From Candidatus Heimdallarchaeota archaeon (GTDB taxonomy: Archaea; Asgardarchaeota; Heimdallarchaeia; JABLTI01), in assembly GCA_023128635.1 (NCBI GenBank), contig JAGMDP010000157.1, positions 1 through 16,309 of the forward strand: a DNA stretch of 16,309 bases, in the 5' to 3' direction. The notes beneath the pieces are model-generated. The model was not told where the DNA came from, did no database searches, and worked only from the letters and a program-made list of their open reading frames with translations. Of this stretch, positions 2,431 through 16,172 are shown piece by piece; the first letter of the stretch is position 1, and the number at the start of each line of letters is the position of its first letter. A program made the translations under genes and the position numbers.

Positions 2431-5400
2431 TTATTTCTGATCCTTGGGTAATTGGATAATAACTGTTGTTCCTTTCCCTTCTTCGCTCTCTAAAGTGAGT
2501 TCGCCACCATGGGCTTGTACGATTTTCAAAATAATTAGCATACCAAATGAAGAATATCTCATAGTTGTCCAAGATTCAATGATTTCTTCCTTCTTGTCTT
2601 TAGGAATACCTTTGCCATCATCCTTCACTATTATTTTATAGAAATTCTTGTAATCTTTCGCACTTATTTCTACTTTATAAGCTTCAGCATGTCTATAGAC
2701 ATTCATTAGTAAATTCTCAAGGACTTGACGCAGCTTTATTGGATCACCTTTGATTTTTGGTAATTTGCCAACCTCAATTTTCAAGTTAGGTTCAAGTGAC
2801 GTTATTTTCTCAGAAATCTCATTTACCATAGTATTCAAGTTAACTACCTTGAAATCACCTAAGAGTTCACCTTTCTTTGCTAATAAGAGCAAATCTTCTA
2901 TGAAAGCAGACATCTCCTCTATACTTTCCCCTATTCTATCACTATATTCGGAATCAGTCATTGAATTGTAAAGAGAGATCACTTGCATCTTACCTCTCAA
3001 GTCATGGGCAATTGTAGAAGCAAAAGACTCTAATTCATCTCTTTGTTTAAACAATTCTTCTTGCTGTTCTCTCAACTGTTCTTCTGTTTGTTTTCTCTCT
3101 GAAATATCAGTTATTACTGCAAAACTTCCCCTATAGTTCCTTTCTGAGTCAAAAATAGGTTGAGGTGAAATAATCGTTGGTATTAAGGTTTTGTCTTTCT
3201 TTATCCAACTGATTTCATATGATTCCAATGTCCCGTTTTCTCTTTCTATTGAATGATTAGCATAGAGATGCCTGTTTTCCTCATCAAGAAATTCACTGAC
3301 TTTATGACCAATTATTTCTTCTTCATTGTAACCAAGCATAATGCATAATTTTCTATTCACATATGTGAAAACTCCTTTCTCATCATCCACAGCTAAACCG
3401 TCATTCATGGTTTCAATTAGTGTTTTGAAACGTGTCTCACTATCAAGTAATTCTTCTTCTGCTTGTTTTCTTAATAATGCGACAGATGCTTGCTGCGCAA
3501 ATGCTTCAACAAGCTCTGGATTTTTAATTTCATGGCCTTCTTGCATAATAAGAAGAACATTACCTAACAATCTGCTTTTACGCATAAAAGCAACCGAATA
3601 AATTTTATCTGTTTTCAGTAATTTTCGCAAAGGTTTTACTGCTTGTTTTGGAAAACCTCCTTGAGTTAGTTCAGCGAGATCTATATCTACTTCTGAAATA
3701 CCAGTTTTAGTTAATTTTCGTCTTGTTTTTTCCTTTACCTTAAATGTCATCCCCACTGGATTTCTACCAAGAAAATTAAGAACATTACCAATTCTCCTGC
3801 CCAGTCCCAAAACTGCTCGAACATGATAATCTATAGTAAGTTCATTAAATGAGGTTACAACTGTTATTGCTTTGCCAGCAAGTTCCCTCATTCTTTCAGC
3901 AATGTATTGATAAATATCTAACTCTGAAGAAAATCCTATGAAATCTGTTGCTGTTTGTGATAAAAATGTTAAATTTTGAACGTATTCTTGTTCTTCTTCT
4001 TTAGCCATTCTCTTCTCTGTTATATCTTGGAATATCGCTACACATGAACCCGGGACTGTTTGAAAAACTCTTACTTCATAAGAACCTGTGACTTTATCAT
4101 CTGAATAATCAATATGCTCTGAGTCCCAAGATCCACCTTTCAAAGCTATCTGTTTGTATATTTTCGGTAATTCGGTATCTGCTGCCGATGGAAAGGCTTC
4201 CTCAATTGTTTTCCCAATTAAATTATTGTGTTTAATCTTTAATATTTCATCAGCAGAGGGATTTCCACCTTGGAAAATAAGTTGACCATTTTGATTCATG
4301 CTATAAATATGGATGCCCAAAGGTGTTGAGTTAATAATCTGTCTAAACCTTTCTTCACTATTCATCAATTCATCTTGAGCTTGGTTTCTTAGAATAGCAA
4401 CAGAAGCTTGACTTGCAAAAGCTTCGATTAAATTTTTGTTCTTAAGTTCATGACCATTCTTTACAAGAATTAAAAGTCCACCTACAATTTGTTTACCTTT
4501 ATTAAATGTAGTAGTATAAACCTTATCAATTTTCAAAAGATTATAGATTGCTTTACTAGCTCTCTTTGAAATTGCTCCCACGGAGATTTCACTCAAATCT
4601 CCTTCAACTAAAGTCAATTTGCCAAAAGGAGTCTTTTTCATAAATTCAACATTTAATTTAGCTTCAACTTTGTATGGATCTTTGCCAACTAGTTTTGCAA
4701 TTGCTTTGTGTTGTTTTTTAATTCCCAGAAGCGATTTAATATTGAATATTTCTTTTTCTTTATCAAATGAAGCAGTTATAATATAAGCCTCACCCGCTAA
4801 ATCTTTTATTTCCTCAGCAATATATTGGTAGATGTTTTTGGAAAATGTTTGTCCTACAAAATGCATTGCTGAATTCGAGAGAAATAGTAAATCATTTATT
4901 CTTTTTAATTGAACCTCTTCCATTAGTTTGCGAGAAGTTATATCTCGAACAACTCCTTGAACAAATTTCTTACCTCCAATTTTAATTAGTGAAGCTGATA
5001 ATTCTCCGAATATTTTTTCTCCGTTTTTCTTTATCAGATGAACTTCTGCTTCAACGAAATTTGTTTTTTCGATTTGCTCAAATGCTGTTTTAGCTATCTT
5101 CTGCCCCTCTGCTGTGGTAAAATCAAGAAGATTCATATTTAGAATTTCTTCCTTGGAATAACCAAAAATTTCCGTAGTTCTTTCATTTATATTAAGAATA
5201 TTTCCTTGTAAATCATAGAGAAAAACTGCATCGTTTGAATTATGAAAAAGACTACTATATTGTTCTGCGATTTCTCTTAATTCTTGTTCAGTTTTCTTTT
5301 CGTCAGTAATATCTCTAATTATTGTAATTGTTCGGACAGCACTCCCATTCTCAATAACTGGAATTTTTCTGGTTTCTGTTATTACGGGATGGTTATTTAA

Positions 5401-6993
5401 CACATTAGTTTCTATAGTGGAAAGTGGTCTGCAGGTACTCATTACTTGTTGATATTCCTTCTTAATGTTTTCAGATAGAAACGGAAAGGCATCGAATATG
5501 TTTTTACCAATTATGTTTGAATCTACATTTAGCTCTTCTAACCATCTTGTTAAAGCACTGTTTAAAAGTACAATATCTAAATTCTCATCTACAACATGCA
5601 AAGGAATACCTAAAGAATTTATAGTAGATTCATATTGTTTCTCAGATGCAAGAATTATTGCTTCTGCATTAACTTGATCTGTAATATCTACACCTGAGCT
5701 TAAAACACCTACAACACGGTTATTATTATCTTTAATAACATTTGATTTCCAAGAGATAATTCTCTCTTTACCATTATTTGTGACTATTGGATTTTCATAA
5801 ATTGTGGCTGAATCTATTCCTCCAAGTATTATATCTGTGAATCTCTGTCTAATTTTACTTTTCAATCTATTAGGAACAAAATCTTCTATCCAATCCTTTC
5901 CAACTATATCACTCTCTTCCAACCCTAGAATCTCGCAACCTCTCTTATTGATCATTTGAATTTTAGCAGTAGGATCTAAAACATTGATAATAACATCTAC
6001 AACATCTAGATACGTTTGTGTTCTTTTTTGTTCGTCTAACAATTCAATATTGGTTTGTCGCTGCAAGTTAAATAATCTGGCATTCTGAATAGCAACAGCA
6101 GCTACATTTGCTAGAGCAGATAACAAATCAATATCTTGCTTTGAATATGCATTAAAATTGTAACTTTGTACTTCAATAACTCCGATTGTGTCTCCGCCAA
6201 TCTTCATTGGGACGTAAACAGCTGATTTTGTATATTCGCCTTCATGATGAGTTTTCTTTTTAGTAATTGGGTCTTGTTTTACGACCCTACGCAAATCTGG
6301 CAGATAAAGATGATTTCCAGTTGTTATGACATTGCTTTGAATTTCACTCTCTTTGTGAGATAAAGGAGATGCTGGAAAAATTGTAATATCTAAAGTTTTT
6401 CCTTCTATAAGTGCAAATCCTGGAGAAATAGTTTGTTTTTCTTTATCATAAAATGAAACTACGAATGTATCAGCATCCATAATTGAATAAATGTGTTGGA
6501 AAATTGTCTTATAAATTTTATTTAAATCACGGGTCTCTCCAAGAGTGAGAGCAAGTTTATTAATAGAAATCTGTTGATCAAGGAGGTGTTTTCGTAATTT
6601 GTCAGCTTGTTTTTTCTCATATAATTTATCAATGAGATTATCAAGTTCATGGAATTGACTTGATTTTTCCCCACCTTTTTGAAGATAAAAATCAGCCCCA
6701 AGATTCAAAGCTTGAATTGCTACTTCTTCTCTTCCCTTCCCTGTAAAAACAATGAAAGGTATTTCATTGCCTGCATCTCTAACAATAGATAGAAACTCTA
6801 AACCATTCATCTCAGGCATTTGATAGTCAGAGATTATAACATCAAATTCTTGTTCTTTAATCATTTCTAGAGCTTGAATTGCAGATTCAACTGTTATTAT
6901 ATTGAATTTTTCATTCATTTTTTCTAGATAGAGTTTTGAAACTTCAAGCAAAGTTTCTTCGTCGTCAACTAGAAGTATTTTAATCTCCGGCAC
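2431..6993 (-). CDS. Large soluble hybrid sensor histidine kinase: REC-GAF-PAS(3)-[GAF-PAS](2)-kinase core
   Basis: 1520 residues from the GTG at 6993; a TTG at 7047 would add 18 basic residues. GTG is preferred because receiver domains begin right at IKILLVDDE. Order, approximate: REC 3-125 (acidic DDE, phospho-Asp56 in SDYQMPEMNG, Thr in VFTGKG, Lys in LQKGG); GAF 147-307; PAS 327-437, 447-562 and 577-687; GAF-like 697-870; PAS 877-992; GAF-like 1002-1177; PAS 1185-1299; dimerisation helix with His1330 in AHDLRGKMQ; HATPase with N box (Asn1427/1431), DDGKGIP at 1458-1464 and GKGTT near 1506. The usual GxGLGL lid is FGMLIIL, a deviation. No membrane helix is visible, so it is probably a cytoplasmic sensor of small ligands or redox state. 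Having REC at the N-terminus and the kinase at the C-terminus suggests phosphorylation input from another kinase. No separate response regulator lies next to it. The second and third GAF-like modules are clear internal duplicates. Confidence 0.93.
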   Translation of the reverse strand: MPEIKILLVDDEETLLEVSKLYLEKMNEKFNIITVESAIQALEMIKEQEFDVIISDYQMPEMNGLEFLSIVRDAGNEIPFIVFTGKGREEVAIQALNLGADFYLQKGGEKSSQFHELDNLIDKLYEKKQADKLRKHLLDQQISINKLALTLGETRDLNKIYKTIFQHIYSIMDADTFVVSFYDKEKQTISPGFALIEGKTLDITIFPASPLSHKESEIQSNVITTGNHLYLPDLRRVVKQDPITKKKTHHEGEYTKSAVYVPMKIGGDTIGVIEVQSYNFNAYSKQDIDLLSALANVAAVAIQNARLFNLQRQTNIELLDEQKRTQTYLDVVDVIINVLDPTAKIQMINKRGCEILGLEESDIVGKDWIEDFVPNRLKSKIRQRFTDIILGGIDSATIYENPIVTNNGKERIISWKSNVIKDNNNRVVGVLSSGVDITDQVNAEAIILASEKQYESTINSLGIPLHVVDENLDIVLLNSALTRWLEELNVDSNIIGKNIFDAFPFLSENIKKEYQQVMSTCRPLSTIETNVLNNHPVITETRKIPVIENGSAVRTITIIRDITDEKKTEQELREIAEQYSSLFHNSNDAVFLYDLQGNILNINERTTEIFGYSKEEILNMNLLDFTTAEGQKIAKTAFEQIEKTNFVEAEVHLIKKNGEKIFGELSASLIKIGGKKFVQGVVRDITSRKLMEEVQLKRINDLLFLSNSAMHFVGQTFSKNIYQYIAEEIKDLAGEAYIITASFDKEKEIFNIKSLLGIKKQHKAIAKLVGKDPYKVEAKLNVEFMKKTPFGKLTLVEGDLSEISVGAISKRASKAIYNLLKIDKVYTTTFNKGKQIVGGLLILVKNGHELKNKNLIEAFASQASVAILRNQAQDELMNSEERFRQIINSTPLGIHIYSMNQNGQLIFQGGNPSADEILKIKHNNLIGKTIEEAFPSAADTELPKIYKQIALKGGSWDSEHIDYSDDKVTGSYEVRVFQTVPGSCVAIFQDITEKRMAKEEEQEYVQNLTFLSQTATDFIGFSSELDIYQYIAERMRELAGKAITVVTSFNELTIDYHVRAVLGLGRRIGNVLNFLGRNPVGMTFKVKEKTRRKLTKTGISEVDIDLAELTQGGFPKQAVKPLRKLLKTDKIYSVAFMRKSRLLGNVLLIMQEGHEIKNPELVEAFAQQASVALLRKQAEEELLDSETRFKTLIETMNDGLAVDDEKGVFTYVNRKLCIMLGYNEEEIIGHKVSEFLDEENRHLYANHSIERENGTLESYEISWIKKDKTLIPTIISPQPIFDSERNYRGSFAVITDISERKQTEEQLREQQEELFKQRDELESFASTIAHDLRGKMQVISLYNSMTDSEYSDRIGESIEEMSAFIEDLLLLAKKGELLGDFKVVNLNTMVNEISEKITSLEPNLKIEVGKLPKIKGDPIKLRQVLENLLMNVYRHAEAYKVEISAKDYKNFYKIIVKDDGKGIPKDKKEEIIESWTTMRYSSFGMLIILKIVQAHGGELTLESEEGKGTTVIIQLPKDQK

Positions 6994-7065: not shown

Positions 7066-7161
7066 CTTTATTCTTAATGCAATCTCAATTACATCTAATC
7101 AAAAATATAAACGGAATATCAATAAGTCTTCGATAGCTGCAAAAGAATTCCTTATATTTCA

Positions 7162-8235
7162 CTATTTTTTACTTTTTAGTTGATCTTCCCATTTTCTTAC
7201 AAGGATCACTTTCTTGTTTTCGTAATCAATGTATTTGTGTTCATTTAACCAACTCACTGATTCGTGTATTACTTTTTTACCATCTGTGTATTTTGGTTCC
7301 CAATCCAGATCTTTCTTGATTTTTGAGATATCCAGAATTCTAGTATTGCCATATCGCATAACGCGATATCGAGTTAAAGTCGGTTTTCCAATACCTTTTC
7401 TTTTTGCAGATATTTCTTTCATCCATGCATATATCATGACTACCCACCGAGGATAATTAGGAATCTTAAAATCAGATTTTATTGCTTCCTTATGTACAAA
7501 CCAATAGTCTTTTTGAGAAATATCAAAACTCTTTATATTGTAGGCATTGCCATTTGCTTCTTCTCTCATACCCAATGATATAATTGCTCGAGCAGCATCT
7601 CTAACATCAACTCCTGAGTAAAAGTTTTTACCTCCTCCAACCATTTTCACTTCTTCATCAAAAAAGGCTTGAACAACTCGAGGTGTTGTTAATGTATCAC
7701 TTGGACCTAGAATCATGGGTAATCTAGCAACAGTAACAGGAAGATTGTGTTTCTTCTGATAATTCCAAGCAATTTGCTCAGAAACTTGTTTTGATTTATG
7801 ATAATCATTTGTGGGATTAAATGGTTGATCCTCTTTCATTGGTTTAGGTTTAACCTTATACCCATACACTCCCCAAGTACTAACGAAGACAAATTTTTCT
7901 GCTGTTTTTTCTTTAACAAAAGCATCTAATAACGCTTCAGTTCCGTCTATGTTTACCTTTTGCAACATTTCTGACGAAACTTGATCTAGCACGACAGCAC
8001 CGAGATGAAAAACTAATGATTTGCCCTTCACTGCTTTCTTTAAAGACTCATGATCAGTTAAATCTCCGATGACCAGTTCCACATCTAGTTTCTTCAAAGC
8101 ATCAATATTGCTATTTTCTCGAACTAGAACAAATATGTCTTTCTTATCTATTCCCCATTCCTCTTTATTTTCTACTAGTTCTTTTACGAGATTTCCACCA
8201 ACAAATCCAGAACCGCCTGTAATTAAAATTGCCAT
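7162..8235 (-). CDS. Extended SDR: NAD(P)-dependent epimerase/dehydratase (3-beta-HSD-like)
   Basis: 357 residues, usual length for extended SDRs. The N-terminal Rossmann motif is TGGSGFVG (6-13), the acidic turn GDLTD is at 57-61, the active-site strand is FVSTWGVYG (117-125, Ser119), and the catalytic YxxxK is Tyr145-Lys149 in DYHKSK. PMILGPSD (173-180) and the VDVRDAARAI segment (209-218) match sugar epimerases and 3-beta-hydroxysteroid dehydrogenases. The C-terminal part is basic and has one hydrophobic stretch (about 264-272), which may bind substrate or a membrane. Its start is fixed by a GGTGA site. It is divergent from the KaiC-like gene and followed 168 bases later by the kinase start, so it is probably its own unit. 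The substrate (nucleotide sugar, isoprenoid or sterol-like lipid) cannot be told from sequence. Confidence 0.88.
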   Translation of the reverse strand: MAILITGGSGFVGGNLVKELVENKEEWGIDKKDIFVLVRENSNIDALKKLDVELVIGDLTDHESLKKAVKGKSLVFHLGAVVLDQVSSEMLQKVNIDGTEALLDAFVKEKTAEKFVFVSTWGVYGYKVKPKPMKEDQPFNPTNDYHKSKQVSEQIAWNYQKKHNLPVTVARLPMILGPSDTLTTPRVVQAFFDEEVKMVGGGKNFYSGVDVRDAARAIISLGMREEANGNAYNIKSFDISQKDYWFVHKEAIKSDFKIPNYPRWVVMIYAWMKEISAKRKGIGKPTLTRYRVMRYGNTRILDISKIKKDLDWEPKYTDGKKVIHESVSWLNEHKYIDYENKKVILVRKWEDQLKSKK

Positions 8236-9269: not shown

Positions 9270-9581
9270 CTAATCAAGTAAAAGTTGCCAAACATAGCCT
9301 ATTTTTGATAGTTGACCAACTATCCATCCTTGTTCTTGAAGCTTTTTTAGTGCTCGATAAACACTATCTGCTGAAGCACAAGTGACACATTCTTGTTCAT
9401 ACTCAGGTGTTAAAGCAAGTTCAACAACACGTTTTGTGGGTATATGATTCTCTCTTGTTAAAATTGTGTAGACACAGATGAGACGTTTATCCTCAACTGT
9501 TTCATAGAGTTTTGCCAAATTTTCTTGCAATATATTTGGTTCTGTAGTATAAGACCCGTTTGGATTCACCAATGTTGACAT
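9270..9581 (-). CDS. Small winged-helix-like protein with three conserved cysteines (second of a paralogous pair)
   Basis: 103 residues. About residues 35-103 align without gaps to the gene just upstream (30 of 69 identical by my count). Shared features are a first Cys (Cys36 in ICVYTIL), TPEYE followed by CVTC (Cys65, Cys68), a SADSVYRALKKLQEQGWI helix-strand and a GYVWQLL end. The helix, RALKKL helix, G-W/Y turn and hairpin look like a winged-helix DNA-binding domain. The cysteines could bind a metal or sense redox state. It has an N-terminal extension of about 34 residues that its partner lacks. It starts 12 bases after the partner's stop, so they form an operon. DNA binding and cysteine function are inferred; I do not recognise a named family. 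Confidence 0.75.
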   Translation of the reverse strand: MSTLVNPNGSYTTEPNILQENLAKLYETVEDKRLICVYTILTRENHIPTKRVVELALTPEYEQECVTCASADSVYRALKKLQEQGWIVGQLSKIGYVWQLLLD

Positions 9582-9593
9582 CTCGAATTTAAA

Positions 9594-9839
9594 TTATTCA
9601 GTAATTAATAATTGCCATCGATAGCCACCTTTTCCCAATGAGGATTTGACATAACCATGCTTTTCCAATTTTTTAATAGCTCGTAGAAATGCATCGCCTG
9701 AAACACAACCAGTGCAGATTGCTTCGAATTCCGGAGAAACTGCATAATCTAGAATTTTCTTAGAAGAAATATTGTTCTCTTTCTTTAGGATTTGATAGAT
9801 GCAGTTTGCGTCTTCTCCGAGTACGATGTTCTCTGTCAT
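9594..9839 (-). CDS. Small winged-helix-like protein with three conserved cysteines (first of a paralogous pair)
   Basis: 81 residues, nearly all the conserved domain: Cys13 in NCIYQIL, SPEFEAICTGC (Cys42, Cys45), DAFLRAIKKLEKHGYV and GGYRWQLL. It is the first gene of a two-gene unit, divergent from the DMT transporter gene at 10031 across a 191-base spacer, which makes it a candidate regulator of itself and of that transporter. Two different but related subunits in one operon suggest a heterodimer, though two independent homodimers are equally possible. No enzyme motif is visible. Confidence 0.75.
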   Translation of the reverse strand: MTENIVLGEDANCIYQILKKENNISSKKILDYAVSPEFEAICTGCVSGDAFLRAIKKLEKHGYVKSSLGKGGYRWQLLITE

Positions 9840-11795: not shown

Positions 11796-12644
11796 TTACT
11801 CCAAAACAATCATTTGAAATCCAATGGTAAATATTACTAGATTAATTGAAACTCTTGTTCTCGCACCATTTGAGGAATAAACCTCTATTGGTCCGGTTCC
11901 GGTATTAATTGTAATTCTGAAATCATCACCTGAAGTGGTAATTGGGTCACCATTTACAGGGAAACCAAATAAAGTTGGATTAACCTCAATATCAGTTTTA
12001 TTTATTATCAAATGATACGAGCCAGAACTCAATCCTACTAAAGAATCAACTGCATTGAAATTTACAGCGATTACAGAAACATCGATTACTCCTCCTACAC
12101 CTGTATCTCTTATTAATAGTTGTAATCTATACCAGAGTTCAAGCTGATATGTTTCTGAATTTGTTCGTTCTAAAACCATTGTTGCTGGATCAATTGAACC
12201 ATCTTGAGTTACTGCAGGTGGGAAAAATGCTCCACCCTTAATGTACTCTTGTGAGTTTTCCGGCATAATTCCAATCTCGCTTGGTATAGATAACCTAGCT
12301 ATTCCATATTCTAATCCTGGAATTGGTAGATACATTGCTCCGTCAATAAAGGCACGAAAATTAAGCCCCATAGAACTAAATCCTAATGATCCATCAAATG
12401 CATCAACAGGTAGTAATCTAGCTGAACCTAATCCATCATAAAACATAGATTGAGTGGCTGCATCAACTTTAGTTAAGAATAAGGTGGAAGCATATATTGA
12501 AGCAGTTGTACTCGCACGATCTATAGTTGGAATCAAATACGAATAAGTTAATGCTACTGAAGTAATCATTATACTAGTAATTAATAACGTAGAAATAATA
12601 TTAGAAACGCCAGATTTATTCTTTCTAATTTTCTTCAATAACAT
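11796..12644 (-). CDS. Archaeal type IV pilin-like protein with class III signal sequence
   Basis: 282 residues from the ATG at 12644; a TTG one codon upstream is rejected because it leaves only one base after GGTGA. The N-terminus has a basic stretch (KKIRKNK), then SGVSNIISTLLITSIMITSVALTYSYL, the pattern of archaeal prepilins. A prepilin peptidase would be expected to cut near Gly12, leaving a hydrophobic helix (about 13-36) to pack in a filament core. The remaining about 245 residues are rich in Ser, Thr, Gly, Ile and Val and look like a beta-rich extracellular domain, ending in hydrophobic strands (VSINLVIFTIGFQMIVLE). No pilus ATPase or membrane platform gene is in the window. It could be a minor pilin or an adhesin displayed by the pilin route. 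Signal type is fairly sure; function is inference. Confidence 0.8.
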   Translation of the reverse strand: MLLKKIRKNKSGVSNIISTLLITSIMITSVALTYSYLIPTIDRASTTASIYASTLFLTKVDAATQSMFYDGLGSARLLPVDAFDGSLGFSSMGLNFRAFIDGAMYLPIPGLEYGIARLSIPSEIGIMPENSQEYIKGGAFFPPAVTQDGSIDPATMVLERTNSETYQLELWYRLQLLIRDTGVGGVIDVSVIAVNFNAVDSLVGLSSGSYHLIINKTDIEVNPTLFGFPVNGDPITTSGDDFRITINTGTGPIEVYSSNGARTRVSINLVIFTIGFQMIVLE

Positions 12645-12648
12645 CAAA

Positions 12649-12653: not shown

Positions 12654-12745
12654 AACAACAATTGTATAAGTGGTTCTATCTATTTATTTTATTTTCTAGG
12701 TTAAAATCTTTCTGTATGGTAGAAAAACAAGTACTTGATGAGATA

Positions 12746-13369
12746 TTAAAGGAGTGTTACAAATTTCATCAAATCTTCACCTGAGGATAATCTATCACCT
12801 ATAGCATCAATTCCTGATTTCTTTAATTGCTTAAAGAAAGGTTTCGCAAGAACAAATGCAAATGAATCAAATAATAATGAACCATCTTCAACAGTGATTC
12901 CTTTTTTTCTTGCTTCATAGGCTTCCACAGCGTTTCCCATGAGATTACCTAAAGTGATTATTTGTATATAGACAAGAACATCTCTTGCTTTTTGAAGACC
13001 ATAATAGTTGACAAGCTTCTCTTTCTCTTTTTTAGTTGGATTATTATTACTTCTCGCACAATGTTTCGCAAAATTCAAAGCTACTATTTCATCTTCTTTG
13101 CATGATTCGAACGAATTGTCAAATATTGAAATAATTTCTGCTTCGTAAGCCCCACTCTTAAGAGCTGCTCCTGAATGACCGTATGAACAATAAATGCAAT
13201 TATTGATCGAAGTAACAGATAACATGATTCGTTCAGCAAATTGCCTGCTAATTCGGTTACTTGTGAAAGTTTCTTTTACTTGTTGGAAATTAGCGATGAG
13301 CTGTTTGATATCCTTAAAGAGACTTTGAAATGTATATCTTCTCTTATGGAAAGTATTAATCGAAGCCAT
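12746..13369 (-). CDS. AhpD/carboxymuconolactone decarboxylase-family protein
   Basis: 207 residues. The AhpD core is ERIMLSVTSINNCIYCSYGHSGAALKSG (46-73), with the redox motif CxxCxxxH as Cys58, Cys61 and His65, followed by helices including LNFAKHCARSNNNPT. AhpD-type proteins act as thiol-dependent alkylhydroperoxidases. Family members with CxxCxxxH are usually peroxidase-like rather than true decarboxylases, so this is likely a thiol redox enzyme. The last about 55 residues (SLLFDSFAFVLAKPFFKQLKKSG) extend past the core and have no obvious motif. The ATG at 13369 sits about 26 bases from a TATA element, predicting a leaderless mRNA. Its promoter and first codons recur as a dead copy near 14776, and a stub of the LigB-like gene lies 130 bases upstream. 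Family is sure, substrate unknown. Confidence 0.88.
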   Translation of the reverse strand: MASINTFHKRRYTFQSLFKDIKQLIANFQQVKETFTSNRISRQFAERIMLSVTSINNCIYCSYGHSGAALKSGAYEAEIISIFDNSFESCKEDEIVALNFAKHCARSNNNPTKKEKEKLVNYYGLQKARDVLVYIQIITLGNLMGNAVEAYEARKKGITVEDGSLLFDSFAFVLAKPFFKQLKKSGIDAIGDRLSSGEDLMKFVTLL

Positions 13370-13459
13370 ACTTTACCTTACTTCAGAGTATATTAAAATA
13401 ATACTCCTTAGAAAGGATGAATTTTTCCTTTTAGAGCTTTACAATTTATCATGTCTATT
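13336..13459 (-). repeat. Direct repeat copy A: promoter and first codons of the AhpD-like gene
   Basis: Aligns without gaps to 14743-14866 at a constant offset of 1407. The core 13347-13413 matches at 56 of 67 positions by hand count. The outer part to 13459 is weaker (27 of 46), with a better block at the end (TTTACAATTTATCAT versus TTTAGAATTTAACAT). The shared DNA covers about 11 codons, the ATG, the TATA element and about 60 bases farther upstream. Confidence 0.8.
13388..13404 (-). promoter_or_regulatory. TATA element of the AhpD-like gene (leaderless arrangement)
   Basis: Minus strand GTATTATTTTAATATAC, centred about 26 bases before the ATG at 13369, so transcription should begin at or next to the start codon. 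With one more base on each side it has AGTAT/ATACT arms, a possible operator. The element and its spacing are kept in the second copy (centre about 14802, stub ATG 14776). Confidence 0.55.
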
Positions 13460-13498
13460 ATCGAAACAAAGATCGTTATGTTAGAAAACAGATATAAT

Positions 13499-13524
13499 TT
13501 AAAGATACTTTGCGACCATCATTC
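13499..13524 (-). pseudogene. Stub of a second LigB/MEMO-like gene: last seven codons and stop
   Basis: On the minus strand this reads ATG ATG GTC GCA AAG TAT CTT TAA, i.e. MMVAKYL and stop, identical in protein to the end of the intact gene at 15342. The DNA match 13495-13524 / 15338-15367 is 27 of 30. The differences within the seven codons and stop are all synonymous (GTA/GTC, AAA/AAG, TGA/TAA). Just before it the frame has a TGA where the intact gene has GGA, and similarity ends, so the rest of the gene is gone. It is too short to be a gene; it is a relic. Confidence 0.75.
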
Positions 13525-13619
13525 ACAATGGAAAAAGAGAATCTATTCTCACATTAATGAGAAACAATAAATAGTTCTCTTATCTATCTTTAGATATTGT
13601 TGATGGTTTGGTTATAAGA

Positions 13620-14714
13620 ATGAAAAAACAAGCACGTATTTTCTTTGTTTTGTTAATTATTACATCTATATTTTGTTCTTCATCTGTAAAACAAGTAAAA
13701 GGTCTAACGTACGAATTTACCTTTGAAGAAAAGACCCATATTGAATCTACAGGGGGAGACACTTTTATGTGTGAAGTTTACGATGATTTGGCAATAATCA
13801 TAGATATGGATGGTGGTTTACTAACGTATAATATAAGCAATCCAGCTACTCCTGTGCATTTGGACACTTTCTATGATGGTGGCATTCCACATGATTTCTT
13901 TGTAGAAGACGACCTTCTATATCTTGCTGATCATCATCAAGGACTCGAAATATACAACATTAGTAACCCTAGTAATTTAGTAAAACTTGGTCAAATTGCA
14001 GATCTTGGTGATGGAGAGACAGATGGAGTATTTGTTTGCGATAATATTGCATATACTGCAGAGTGGCATGATTCGACTTGGGACTGGAGTTTGGTATTAA
14101 TAAATGTAACAAATCCTAGCACTCCTGTAAAAATCTCAGAGTATGTAGACGGAGATAATGAATTTCACAGATTTTATGTAGAAAATGAAATTTGCTATGC
14201 ATCATGTCTAACAAGCGGTTTCAAGATTCTTAATGTCACAAATCCCAATAGTATTGTGGAAATTGGAGTTTTTAACAATGGTGGTTATAACTATGACTTG
14301 ATTATACAAGACAACATTGCTTGGGTTACAAGTGGGGAACTAGAAATTCTGAATTTGACTGACCTAAGTAATCCTACGTTAATTAACAGTTATTCTTCGG
14401 TAAATTCCATTTTCGACTTAGAAATCAAAGATGACTTGGCATTTGTAGTTGTGTTTCAAAATGGTGTTGAAGTAGTAAACATTAGTTCATTTGATGATCT
14501 TGAAAAAATAGGTGAATATAACGATAATCTAGTAAGTAATCTTGTCGTTACCAGTAACTTACTCTATGTTTCAATGCATGGGAATGGATTCAAAATATTT
14601 GAGTATCAACTTTCAGAGGTTACAGAAACAGCTAATATGTTTGGGATTACAATTATATTCACAAGTCTAGCAACAATATCGTTGTTAATTCTTATTAAAC
14701 GAAAGAAAAACTAA
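13620..14714 (+). CDS. Secreted, membrane-anchored LVIVD-repeat beta-propeller protein
   Basis: 364 residues from the ATG at 13620. A TTG four codons upstream is rejected because the signal peptide begins cleanly at MKKQARIFFVLLIITSIF. After cleavage (around 28) come seven repeats of about 40-48 residues, marked by DLAIIIDMDGGLLTYNISNP (56-75), DLLYLADHHQGLEIYNISNP (98-117) and equivalents at 142-166, 190-209, 232-252, 272-290 and 313-329: a seven-bladed propeller of the LVIVD family. A C-terminal helix (341-359) and RKKN tail anchor it, so the propeller faces outside. Six blades carry an N-[ILV]-[ST] sequon at the same place (Asn71, 113, 162, 205, 245, 287), suggesting a glycosylated surface protein. 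A cysteine at 19 does not fit a lipobox. It lies between relics of two other genes, so it is probably a newcomer here. Role (binding or adhesion) is inferred. Confidence 0.85.
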   Translation: MKKQARIFFVLLIITSIFCSSSVKQVKGLTYEFTFEEKTHIESTGGDTFMCEVYDDLAIIIDMDGGLLTYNISNPATPVHLDTFYDGGIPHDFFVEDDLLYLADHHQGLEIYNISNPSNLVKLGQIADLGDGETDGVFVCDNIAYTAEWHDSTWDWSLVLINVTNPSTPVKISEYVDGDNEFHRFYVENEICYASCLTSGFKILNVTNPNSIVEIGVFNNGGYNYDLIIQDNIAWVTSGELEILNLTDLSNPTLINSYSSVNSIFDLEIKDDLAFVVVFQNGVEVVNISSFDDLEKIGEYNDNLVSNLVVTSNLLYVSMHGNGFKIFEYQLSEVTETANMFGITIIFTSLATISLLILIKRKKN

Positions 14715-14776
14715 TAATGCTTAGATATTAGATTGTCTTTTACTCCTCTATTTTGGAAAGTGTTAACCGATGTCAT
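14711..14776 (-). pseudogene. Stub of a second AhpD-like gene: start codon and about eleven codons
   Basis: From an ATG at 14776 the minus strand encodes MTSVNTFQNRG, matching MASINTFHKRR of the intact gene, then diverges and stops after 21 codons at 14711, touching the end of the LVIVD gene. The TATA element and its 26-base spacing are preserved upstream. The catalytic CxxCxxxH region is absent, so this is a truncated relic, though its promoter might still fire toward the LVIVD gene's 3' end. Confidence 0.7.
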
Positions 14777-14866
14777 ACTTTACCAATCTTCATAGAATAT
14801 TAAAAGAATACTACTTAGAATAGTTATTATTTTTCTTCAAGTTGTTTAGAATTTAACATATTTTAT
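14743..14866 (-). repeat. Direct repeat copy B: promoter and first codons of the lost AhpD-like gene
   Basis: Ungapped partner of 13336-13459, same orientation. Similarity stops at about 14743 on the left, just past the LVIVD stop, and at about 14866 on the right, where the promoter of the small gene at 14921 begins. It fills most of the 206-base gap between those genes; I see nothing else in the gap except the TATA-like TTATATAA at 14863-14870. Confidence 0.8.
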
Positions 14867-14909
14867 ATAATGATTCACCCAAATAATAAGTAGAAGATAG
14901 TATTAGTTA

Positions 14910-14914
14910 GGGGG
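14910..14914 (+). promoter_or_regulatory. G-rich ribosome binding site of the 139-residue gene
   Basis: GGGGG preceded by A, 6 bases before the ATG at 14921. It pairs imperfectly with a CCUCC-type anti-Shine-Dalgarno sequence. It differs from the GGTGA and GAGG sites of other genes here. The TATA-like TTATATAA at 14863-14870 would start transcription near 14893. Confidence 0.45.
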
Positions 14915-14920
14915 AATTAC

Positions 14921-15340
14921 ATGAAAGAAAGAACTCAACTAGAGATAGCATGTGCGGAAATTGTTGGTGATGAGACAAATCAATACTACGATATCCTTTC
15001 AGAAATGTTGATAATGAATCCTCATTTATTAAAGAAAGATGATACTAGACTTTCTGCTCAATTTACTTCTATACTTTTCAGTGAAGAAGTTGAAGACAAA
15101 GCTCATCTTATCTGTAGTATTATTGAAACAATTGATAATAAATCAGAGGATAAATATGTAAAACAAGCTAAGCTCTTGTTAGAAATCGATCCTGTTCTTG
15201 AAATTACAAAACAAATTGTTGATAAACTCAAAACATTTCCAAATCCAAATTATTCGGAAATAATGAGAAAAGTGAATATTCATAAAGATGAAGTAAGAAT
15301 AATTCGAAGAGGATTTGTATATCATAAAAGACGTGTCTAA
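14921..15340 (+). CDS. Small, mostly helical protein of unknown function
   Basis: 139 residues; I do not recognise the family. There is no signal peptide or membrane helix. Predicted helices with alternating acidic and hydrophobic residues run through about 5-115 (LEIACAEIVG, YYDILSEMLIM, AHLICSIIETID, YVKQAKLLLEIDP), with recurring (N/D)P turns (NPHLL, DPVLEI). The C-terminus is strongly basic (EVRIIRRGF then HKRRV) and could bind nucleic acid or acidic lipid. The start is supported by a G-rich site 6 bases upstream and a TATA-like box about 55 bases upstream. Its stop is 1 base from the convergent LigB-like stop. It sits in a spacer that is only about 130 bases in the other copy of the duplicated region, so it was inserted here or lost there. 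Confidence 0.7.
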   Translation: MKERTQLEIACAEIVGDETNQYYDILSEMLIMNPHLLKKDDTRLSAQFTSILFSEEVEDKAHLICSIIETIDNKSEDKYVKQAKLLLEIDPVLEITKQIVDKLKTFPNPNYSEIMRKVNIHKDEVRIIRRGFVYHKRRV

Positions 15341-15341
15341 T

Positions 15342-16172
15342 TCAAAGATATTTTGCTACCATCATTCCGTAGTATGTAGGAGCTGACCTACTTGTTACTT
15401 CGGGTTTCAATTTCTTCTTCTCCAGCATTCCTTGAAGCATAACAAAACCAATGTAGCCGCAACAAAGTGCTTCTCCTAGTTTTGGAACTGCTTTCTTTAC
15501 GAGTAATTTTGAATCTAAAGACCCAGCCCATTCTTCCATAAGAGCATCAAAAGGCGCAGCATCTTCAGAGAAACCGTAAGGACCGTCTTTATCATGAGTA
15601 TGGCCCATGTCAGCACTTATAATAATAACAACATTTTTCTTCAATTTTTCAAAGAAAAGTCGAAGATCATTACCTAAGCATAATGTTTCCGGAATTAATT
15701 CTTCTGTTTGATCATGCCTACGTAAGGGTTGTGAAAGAAGAACGTATTTGGGTTTTGAAGAGATTTTTCTGAGGAACCATAATGGAACCGCATCCCCCCA
15801 TCTTAGATTTACTTCAACACCTGGAGTGTATGCAGCTATTCCAGTAACAGCTGTTTCTTTTTCCAGAAGATAATCAAGTAATTTATTCGAAATCTCTTGA
15901 TCAATATCAATTTTAACAGTATAATTCTGATATTCATTCTCCCACTCACAAGATGCGATAGCTCCTTTATTCAAGCAAATACCAAAATCATTTGACAAAG
16001 CAATACCATGTGGAGACGTCATGAAAATTAAATCAGGTTTTAGTTTCTCTATTGCTTTAGTAGCATCAATCATTGCTTTGTGAAGATCTTTGGCTTCTTT
16101 CGGAAGTCCCTTTTTCTTTGGGTCAAGTATCATTGACCCATGTGGTAGAATAAATGCCCCAACAATAACCAT
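15342..16172 (-). CDS. Class III extradiol dioxygenase-family (LigB/MEMO-like) protein
   Basis: 276 residues from the ATG at 16172. A GTG at 16217 would add 15 residues, but GAGG lies 8 bases before the ATG and the family begins right at xIVGAxxLPHG. Conserved points: LPHG (His11), SPHG (His55), SADMGHTHDKDGPYGFSEDAAPFDALM (186-212) and KLGEALCCGY (Glu234). In LigB-type enzymes two histidines and a glutamate bind Fe(II), fitting His11, His55 and Glu234; MEMO proteins share the fold without dioxygenase activity. The real substrate is unknown, and either an oxygen-dependent ring-cleaving enzyme or a MEMO/AMMECR1-type role is possible. The C-terminal MMVAKYL is duplicated near 13499, evidence that a second copy once existed next to the AhpD-like gene. 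Family confident, activity not. Confidence 0.85.
   Translation of the reverse strand: MVIVGAFILPHGSMILDPKKKGLPKEAKDLHKAMIDATKAIEKLKPDLIFMTSPHGIALSNDFGICLNKGAIASCEWENEYQNYTVKIDIDQEISNKLLDYLLEKETAVTGIAAYTPGVEVNLRWGDAVPLWFLRKISSKPKYVLLSQPLRRHDQTEELIPETLCLGNDLRLFFEKLKKNVVIIISADMGHTHDKDGPYGFSEDAAPFDALMEEWAGSLDSKLLVKKAVPKLGEALCCGYIGFVMLQGMLEKKKLKPEVTSRSAPTYYGMMVAKYL

Follow-up and report, generated by a model that had tools for sequence, protein, structure and literature searches.

How did neighbouring genes in the chromosome of an Asgard archaeon come to change places? The question is raised by positions 12746-16172 of a 16,309-nucleotide stretch of DNA from Candidatus Heimdallarchaeota archaeon (contig JAGMDP010000157.1, assembly GCA_023128635.1), hereafter the window (W), where an LVIVD beta-propeller gene stands between a LigB-like and an AhpD-like gene and is flanked by fragments of both. 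A first-pass annotation had listed five pieces here, two of them fragments. All five lie where it had put them and the fragments exceed what shuffled sequence yields, but an intact gene, called X1 here, and the tail of a second copy of it (X2) had been overlooked. Altogether, the locus very probably results from a tandem double cassette whose copies (copy 1, labelled A, and copy 2, labelled B) lost complementary genes, however the double copy began. From the LigB-like gene to the unduplicated border, the parts are as follows (G001, G002 and G003 are relatives introduced below):

15342..16172, minus strand: intact LigB-like gene, class III extradiol dioxygenase family, 276 aa (homologues; profile against structure 5hee)
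14921..15340, plus strand: intact gene X1, 139 aa, convergent with LigB (homologues; same place in G001, G002 and G003)
14777..14868, minus strand: upstream region of the lost AhpD1 (copy 1), common to the X1 upstream region
14711..14776, minus strand: AhpD1 scar, about 11 first codons and a likely AhpD tail in frame (21-codon open reading frame MTSVNTFQNRGVKDNLISKHY, then a stop)
13608..14714, plus strand: intact LVIVD beta-propeller gene (LVIVD1); TTG at 13608 opens the reading frame, ATG at 13620 is the likelier start
13528..13607, plus strand: LVIVD1 upstream region; homology to G001 and G002 ends at about 13528
13525..13528, no strand: copy 1/copy 2 junction, where the LVIVD upstream region meets the LigB tail; the sole backward jump
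13499..13524, minus strand: LigB tail fragment (MMVAKYL, then a stop), left edge of copy 2 (alignment to LigB)
13462..13497, plus strand: X2 scar, 11 last codons and stop of a second X (anchored alignment)
13370..13461, minus strand: AhpD2 upstream region (copy 2)
12746..13369, minus strand: intact AhpD-like gene (AhpD2), 207 aa, CIYCSYGH motif (PF02627; 86% to G001)
12723..12745, minus strand: remnant of the AhpD-LVIVD spacer joined to the pilin-like upstream region, the presumed site of the LVIVD2 deletion
11796..12647, minus strand: flanking pilin-like gene, the unduplicated right border (93% to G001, where its neighbour is unchanged)

The locus tiles onto the gene order of close relatives

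Nine genomes of the family were compared (G001-G009, G001 being isolate 12R2_15; assembly completeness was not stated), and searches at the level of the order gave the identical nine. Both close relatives with a complete locus (2/2, G001 and G002) keep the order LigB-X-AhpD-LVIVD-pilin, with X and LVIVD in reverse orientation and nothing duplicated, and G003 agrees with this plain order as far as its contig runs (LigB-X-AhpD, cut off inside AhpD). The ancestral order would accordingly be LigB, X (reverse), AhpD, LVIVD (reverse) and the pilin-like gene.

Aligned to L001 of G001, window positions 16309-14743 correspond to L001 3623-5190, 14517-13528 to 6003-6990 (13528 also to 2678 in L016 of G002), 13522-13459 to 4568-4631, 13452-12723 to 5076-5805, and 12725-12400 to 7081-7406. 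The end of LVIVD (window 14714-14517) is diverged and aligned as protein only; L001 5190-6003 holds the counterpart of the lost AhpD1 together with this diverged end. The tiling contains three gaps and one backward jump, at which window 13522 (L001 4568) stands beside 13528 (L001 6990), and this single backward jump points to one tandem double copy of about 2.4 kb (L001 4568 to 6990). Direct copies of one segment in the same register are present, whole or as remnants, as tandem duplication with complementary loss would leave them. Each gene is intact once and the single survivors come from different copies (X1, LVIVD1 and AhpD2), so that the order changed from X-AhpD-LVIVD to X-LVIVD-AhpD.

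The tandem stage would have read LigB-(X1-AhpD1-LVIVD1)-(LigB tail-X2-AhpD2-LVIVD2)-pilin, the repeat spanning about 2.4 kb. Three deletions would then have removed most of AhpD1, X2 and LVIVD2, the last of these at 12723..12745. On this reading the LigB tail bounds copy 2 on the left, without any need for a complete second LigB at any time. The idea that the fragments derive from a tandem double copy followed by losses is thus borne out by the tiling and its one backward jump. The repeated unit, however, is LigB tail-X-AhpD-LVIVD and not LigB-AhpD as first supposed, and three losses are needed where a single deletion/insertion had been thought to explain everything. A likely effect of the swap is that AhpD now runs codirectionally into the pilin-like gene, with the starts of AhpD and LVIVD lying back to back at the scar region.

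Scars of the lost genes

The fragments were scored against shuffles that preserve base composition, not dinucleotides. The AhpD fragment (14744-14868) aligns without gaps to the upstream region and opening codons of AhpD2 (13337-13461), with 92 of 125 bases identical; its score is 59, and 500 shuffles reached at most 20 (89 against 32 under stricter scoring); its AhpD1 upstream part shares 66 of 92 bases with the AhpD2 upstream region. For the LigB fragment, 27 of 30 bases agree between 13495-13524 and 15338-15367, and 37 of 48 when the match is extended to 48 nucleotides. The extended match scores 26, where 500 shuffles gave no more than 21, and 45 against 41 under stricter scoring, a thin margin; scored against LigB alone, the stub was equalled by none of 2000 shuffles, and the fragment matches the relatives' L020, L016 and L001 at E 6e-9 to 6e-7.

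The LigB fragment continues into the X2 tail, 11 codons and a stop (YRNKDRYVRKQI, then a stop, against YRSRDAYAKRRI, then a stop, in G001). This scar agrees with the X end of G001 at 23 of 36 positions, with G002 at 22, with the window's own X1 at 19 and with G003 at 16, matches that in an anchored test were reached by 0, 6, 92 and 572 of 20000 shuffles, respectively. The 21-codon frame of the AhpD1 scar ends in SKHY and a stop, resembling the KHH and stop that end AhpD in G001 and G002; its anchored matches (13/21 and 14/21) were reached by 37 and 20 of 20000 shuffles. Both anchored tests are post hoc, picked after the data had been seen, and the AhpD1 and X2 tails count as evidence because they are sited at the expected place, and by that alone. 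The scar at 14711-14776 keeps the old start region as an open frame of 21 codons, probably by chance.

In L001, ATGG flanks the copy junction on both sides; the junction is too diverged to claim microhomology. A DNA search with window 13337-13620 found its parts at their ordinary places in G001-G003, and other matches in the nine genomes had E >0.01.

The two cassettes are of diverged types

There are two cassette types in the AhpD start segment, compared here as the AhpD upstream region and first codons. Copy 1 is 80.6% identical to G002 and 76.0% to G001, copy 2 is 88.0% identical to G001 and 72.6% to G002, and the two copies are 73.6% identical to each other. Of 13 informative sites in this quartet, 12 support the split of copy 1 and G002 from copy 2 and G001, one pairs the two copies and none supports the third arrangement. 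The copies are therefore not mutual closest relatives, as an origin within one genome would have made them. A recent self-duplication in the window's own lineage was considered and is ruled out by the copy identity and the quartet.

Synonymous divergence (dS) in the flanks is 0.31-0.55 for LigB (six pairs among W, G001, G002 and G003) and, between W and G001, 0.24 in the pilin-like gene and 0.35 in the gene after it. Between types, it reaches 0.71-0.77 in X, 1.19-1.42 in the N-terminal half of AhpD and 1.32-1.47 in LVIVD; the window X agrees with that of G002 (dS 0.29). For the N-terminal half of AhpD, a clade of W, G001, G002 and P0126 was rejected by the approximately unbiased (AU) test (p-AU 0.0001; 0.0002 with G003 added), and the LigB tree unites W, G001, G002 and P0001 with modest support (84/84).

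Between G001 and G002, the C-terminal half of AhpD and LVIVD have dS 0.07-0.08 versus 0.44 in LigB, and the two genomes are near-identical (94-99% per 100 bases) from the last third of AhpD through LVIVD. The near-identical tract occupies L001 5612-6910 and L016 about 1300-2600, the upstream part of the locus being 74-93% alike; it is probably a recent exchange between species. With LVIVD so far below LigB in dS, DNA probably passed between lineages at this locus, and the tandem pair is for that reason more readily explained by import of a second cassette. That the second cassette arrived by recombination with a sister lineage has about an even chance of being right. The full account, in which interspecies recombination drove the swap by setting a sister-lineage cassette in tandem with the resident one, complementary losses then leaving X and LVIVD resident and AhpD foreign, we put at roughly 0.48.

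Several observations weigh against the double cassette with complementary loss or complicate the picture of two types. The X of G003 breaks a simple division into two types, with dS 0.69-1.12 to W, G001 and G002, the C-terminal half of the window AhpD is about equidistant from G001 (dS 0.66) and G002 (0.76), and LVIVD1 has no same-type relative. Cross-type dS is uneven (about 0.7 in X, about 1.4 in LVIVD), so that one clean event fails to explain every segment, and the X2 scar matches the G001 and G002 types about equally well (23 and 22 of 36), so that the type of copy 2 rests on AhpD. Only G001 and G002 carry a complete cassette, and among the nine family genomes none has both cassettes whole. 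In free local alignment, neither the AhpD1 tail (score reached by 133 and 153 of 2000 shuffles) nor the X2 tail (238, 85 and 90 of 2000) was significant. LVIVD2 left a spacer junction and no coding remnant, its earlier presence being deduced from the order.

The import step, and that step only, has a rival that we hold to be possible rather than probable, namely an old in-place duplication before the species split, of which G001, G002 and the window kept different mixes, a crossover between copies having restored the plain order in G001 and G002. Such a duplication would fit cross-type dS in excess of species dS and the copy-2 type of G001 in the AhpD start. It would also fit the sliding identity of G002, which shifts from the copy-1 type to a G001-like sequence inside AhpD, left to right, as a tandem crossover would leave, and a separate X tandem with one broken copy exists in G005. 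Against it, the low LVIVD dS between G001 and G002 (0.08 versus 0.44 in LigB) calls for interspecies transfer anyway, and the cross-type dS differs among X, AhpD and LVIVD. Moreover, the AhpD type of G002 occurs also in G003, P0128 and P0129 (a clade of six rows, 96/97), so that an old duplication would require several extra losses; P0128 and P0129 probably belong with the outer LigB proteins P0004 and P0003.

Other explanations

It is improbable that the fragments are retained functional elements, with the AhpD1 upstream region and the 21-codon frame serving X1 or making a short peptide. The frame does have a start and a stop, and the scar shares the X1 upstream region, but the two copies of the segment have diverged to 74%, AhpD starts normally at that place in G001, G002 and G003, with no such reading frame, and one deletion in three stays in frame by chance.

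An assembly chimera of two strains, joining L016-like and L001-like contigs, is less likely still. The copies resemble two different relatives and the locus is known from the assembly alone, but the repeats at the junctions are diverged (74-77% alike), with no long exact repeats of the kind that mislead assemblers. A chimera would not delete AhpD1, X2 and LVIVD2, and the surviving genes are full-length. Proteins identical to the window AhpD come from three contigs, which says nothing on order.

Hardly tenable is the account of the first-pass annotation itself, a duplicated LigB-AhpD unit with a foreign LVIVD gene inserted into the gap: LVIVD does have the lowest protein identity between the window and G001 (63%, against 97% for LigB, 93% for the pilin-like gene, 86% for AhpD and 78% for X), but synteny refutes the insertion, because G001 and G002 already have LVIVD beside AhpD with an upstream region homologous up to the LigB fragment, LVIVD lies near X in G004 and G008, and X separates LigB from AhpD. 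By this gene order, LVIVD is an original member of the cassette. Relatives that all carry LVIVD here with no LigB-AhpD adjacency had been named in advance as contrary evidence, and half of that was found: G001 and G002 carry LVIVD at this place, with X standing between their LigB and AhpD.

The LigB slot in farther relatives

LigB and X are present in 9/9 family genomes and AhpD in 6/9, no AhpD being found at E 0.001 in G004, G008 and G009. AhpD lies near LigB in the three closest genomes (G001, G002 and G003), with X between them; in G005, G006 and G007 AhpD and LigB are on different contigs. A conserved LigB-AhpD pair was therefore rejected, since farther relatives do not keep it, and the shared redox pathway that had been proposed for the two proteins is not supported.

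What lies between LigB and the pilin-like gene, or next to LigB on contigs that stop short, differs among the farther relatives. In G005 this slot holds X-GS-Lrp, where we take GS to be a glutamine synthetase-like and Lrp an Lrp-like gene, and GS is intact (L010 12144-13445). G004 has X-GS-Lrp-LVIVD with GS broken by one stop (L004 13608-14909), and G008 has the same four genes with GS broken by a frame change, on a contig without LigB (L024/L036). A 90-codon GS remnant occupies the slot of G006 (L007 7828-8097), and that of G007 is a spacer of about 230 bases, which none of the queries matched. A close match to GS was not found in the other five genomes, among which the contigs of G003 and G009 are cut. 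The GS-like gene thus appears to be in parallel decay across relatives. In the window's clade, AhpD sits where GS-Lrp sits in G004 and G008.

G005 carries two X genes in tandem by LigB (L010 11052-11406 and 11649-12068), the copy nearer LigB being broken into pieces. The pair reads as a second duplication with decay at this slot, and duplication with decay seems, from these gene arrangements, to be recurrent between LigB and the pilin-like gene.

Gene families at the locus

The LigB-like protein has 188 homologues at E 0.001. Against Pfam it had no match up to E 5, and the LigB-like proteins of G001 and G004 had none up to E 0.01; P0005, 88% identical to the window protein, matches PF02900 at 33.8 bits (cut-off 26.3), and a profile built from 22 relatives hits structure 5hee (TK2203) at E 1.2e-19. 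X, transcribed against LigB and away from AhpD, has 28 homologues, and all four with a source name are from Heimdallarchaeota; X1 matched no Pfam family at E 0.001. AhpD2 belongs to PF02627 (25.7 bits, cut-off 23) and scores far under the cut-offs of the NCBIfam AhpD models; its CIYCSYGH fits CxxCxxxH, which we take to be the PF02627/AhpD-like motif. LVIVD1 belongs to PF08309 (39.7 bits, cut-off 20.2). LVIVD-type propellers are very numerous in the nine genomes, with 30-74 matches (not genes) per genome. The LVIVD protein begins with a hydrophobic stretch and has another ahead of a basic C-terminus, features that would suit a surface-anchored protein. The label pilin-like is a guess from the N-terminus, the top family match being at E 0.77.

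Between the window and G001, the ratio of nonsynonymous to synonymous divergence (dN/dS) is 0.09-0.19 for X, both halves of AhpD and LVIVD, from which the surviving genes look functional. Elsewhere in the window, a pair of related small proteins (103 and 81 aa) is encoded side by side at 9270-9839 on the minus strand, and the pair recurs in G006 and G007; we guess them to be winged-helix proteins.

Discussion

The genes themselves look like ordinary members of the PF08309, PF02627 and PF02900 families, unusual only in their rearrangement, and the locus fits known models of duplication with complementary loss, with the twist that its copies are not recent self-copies. Tandem duplication-random loss (TDRL) is a model of mitochondrial genome rearrangement. 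The locus shares with it a single backward step along the ancestral order together with complementary losses, and differs in lying on a cellular chromosome and in having copies that do not stem from one recent self-duplication.

In the SNAP model of gene-order change in bacteria (Brandis and Hughes 2020, PMC7055797), a segmental duplication is followed by different losses from each copy, and the authors suggest looking for intermediates, for instance pseudogenes whose active counterparts are still present. The window likewise combines duplication and copy-specific loss leading to a rearranged order, and its pairs of pseudogene and active gene are remains of the suggested kind. The model concerns bacteria, tens to hundreds of genes and early steps, whereas here an archaeon carries the scarred end state of about 2.4 kb and three genes, with copies of two diverged types. 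SNAP has as its criterion a duplication kept by selection in a new niche; the window locus is known from sequence alone. A follow-up (PMC8046335) describes duplication or transfer from a close species and then asymmetrical loss.

Tandem merodiploids formed by natural transformation have been described in pneumococcus, where the duplications span about 100-900 kb and are tied to repeats (Johnston et al. 2013, PMC3784515). As there, imported DNA with partial homology would make a tandem double copy; the process was shown in pneumococcus, whereas here it is deduced, with no clear repeat at the junction. A literature search by title, over a limited collection and set of terms, turned up no such footprint in archaea.

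Swaps of neighbouring genes in prokaryotic chromosomes have so far been largely a matter of models. For this one event in an Asgard archaeon, intact relatives allow the junctions to be read. The locus also carries a caution, in that adjacency and fragments can hint at a shared pathway, as of LigB with AhpD, that relatives do not support. The two diverged copy types may tie gene-order change to recombination between lineages and, if import is true, the locus would be a scar-level Asgard example of lateral transfer altering gene order without gene gain.

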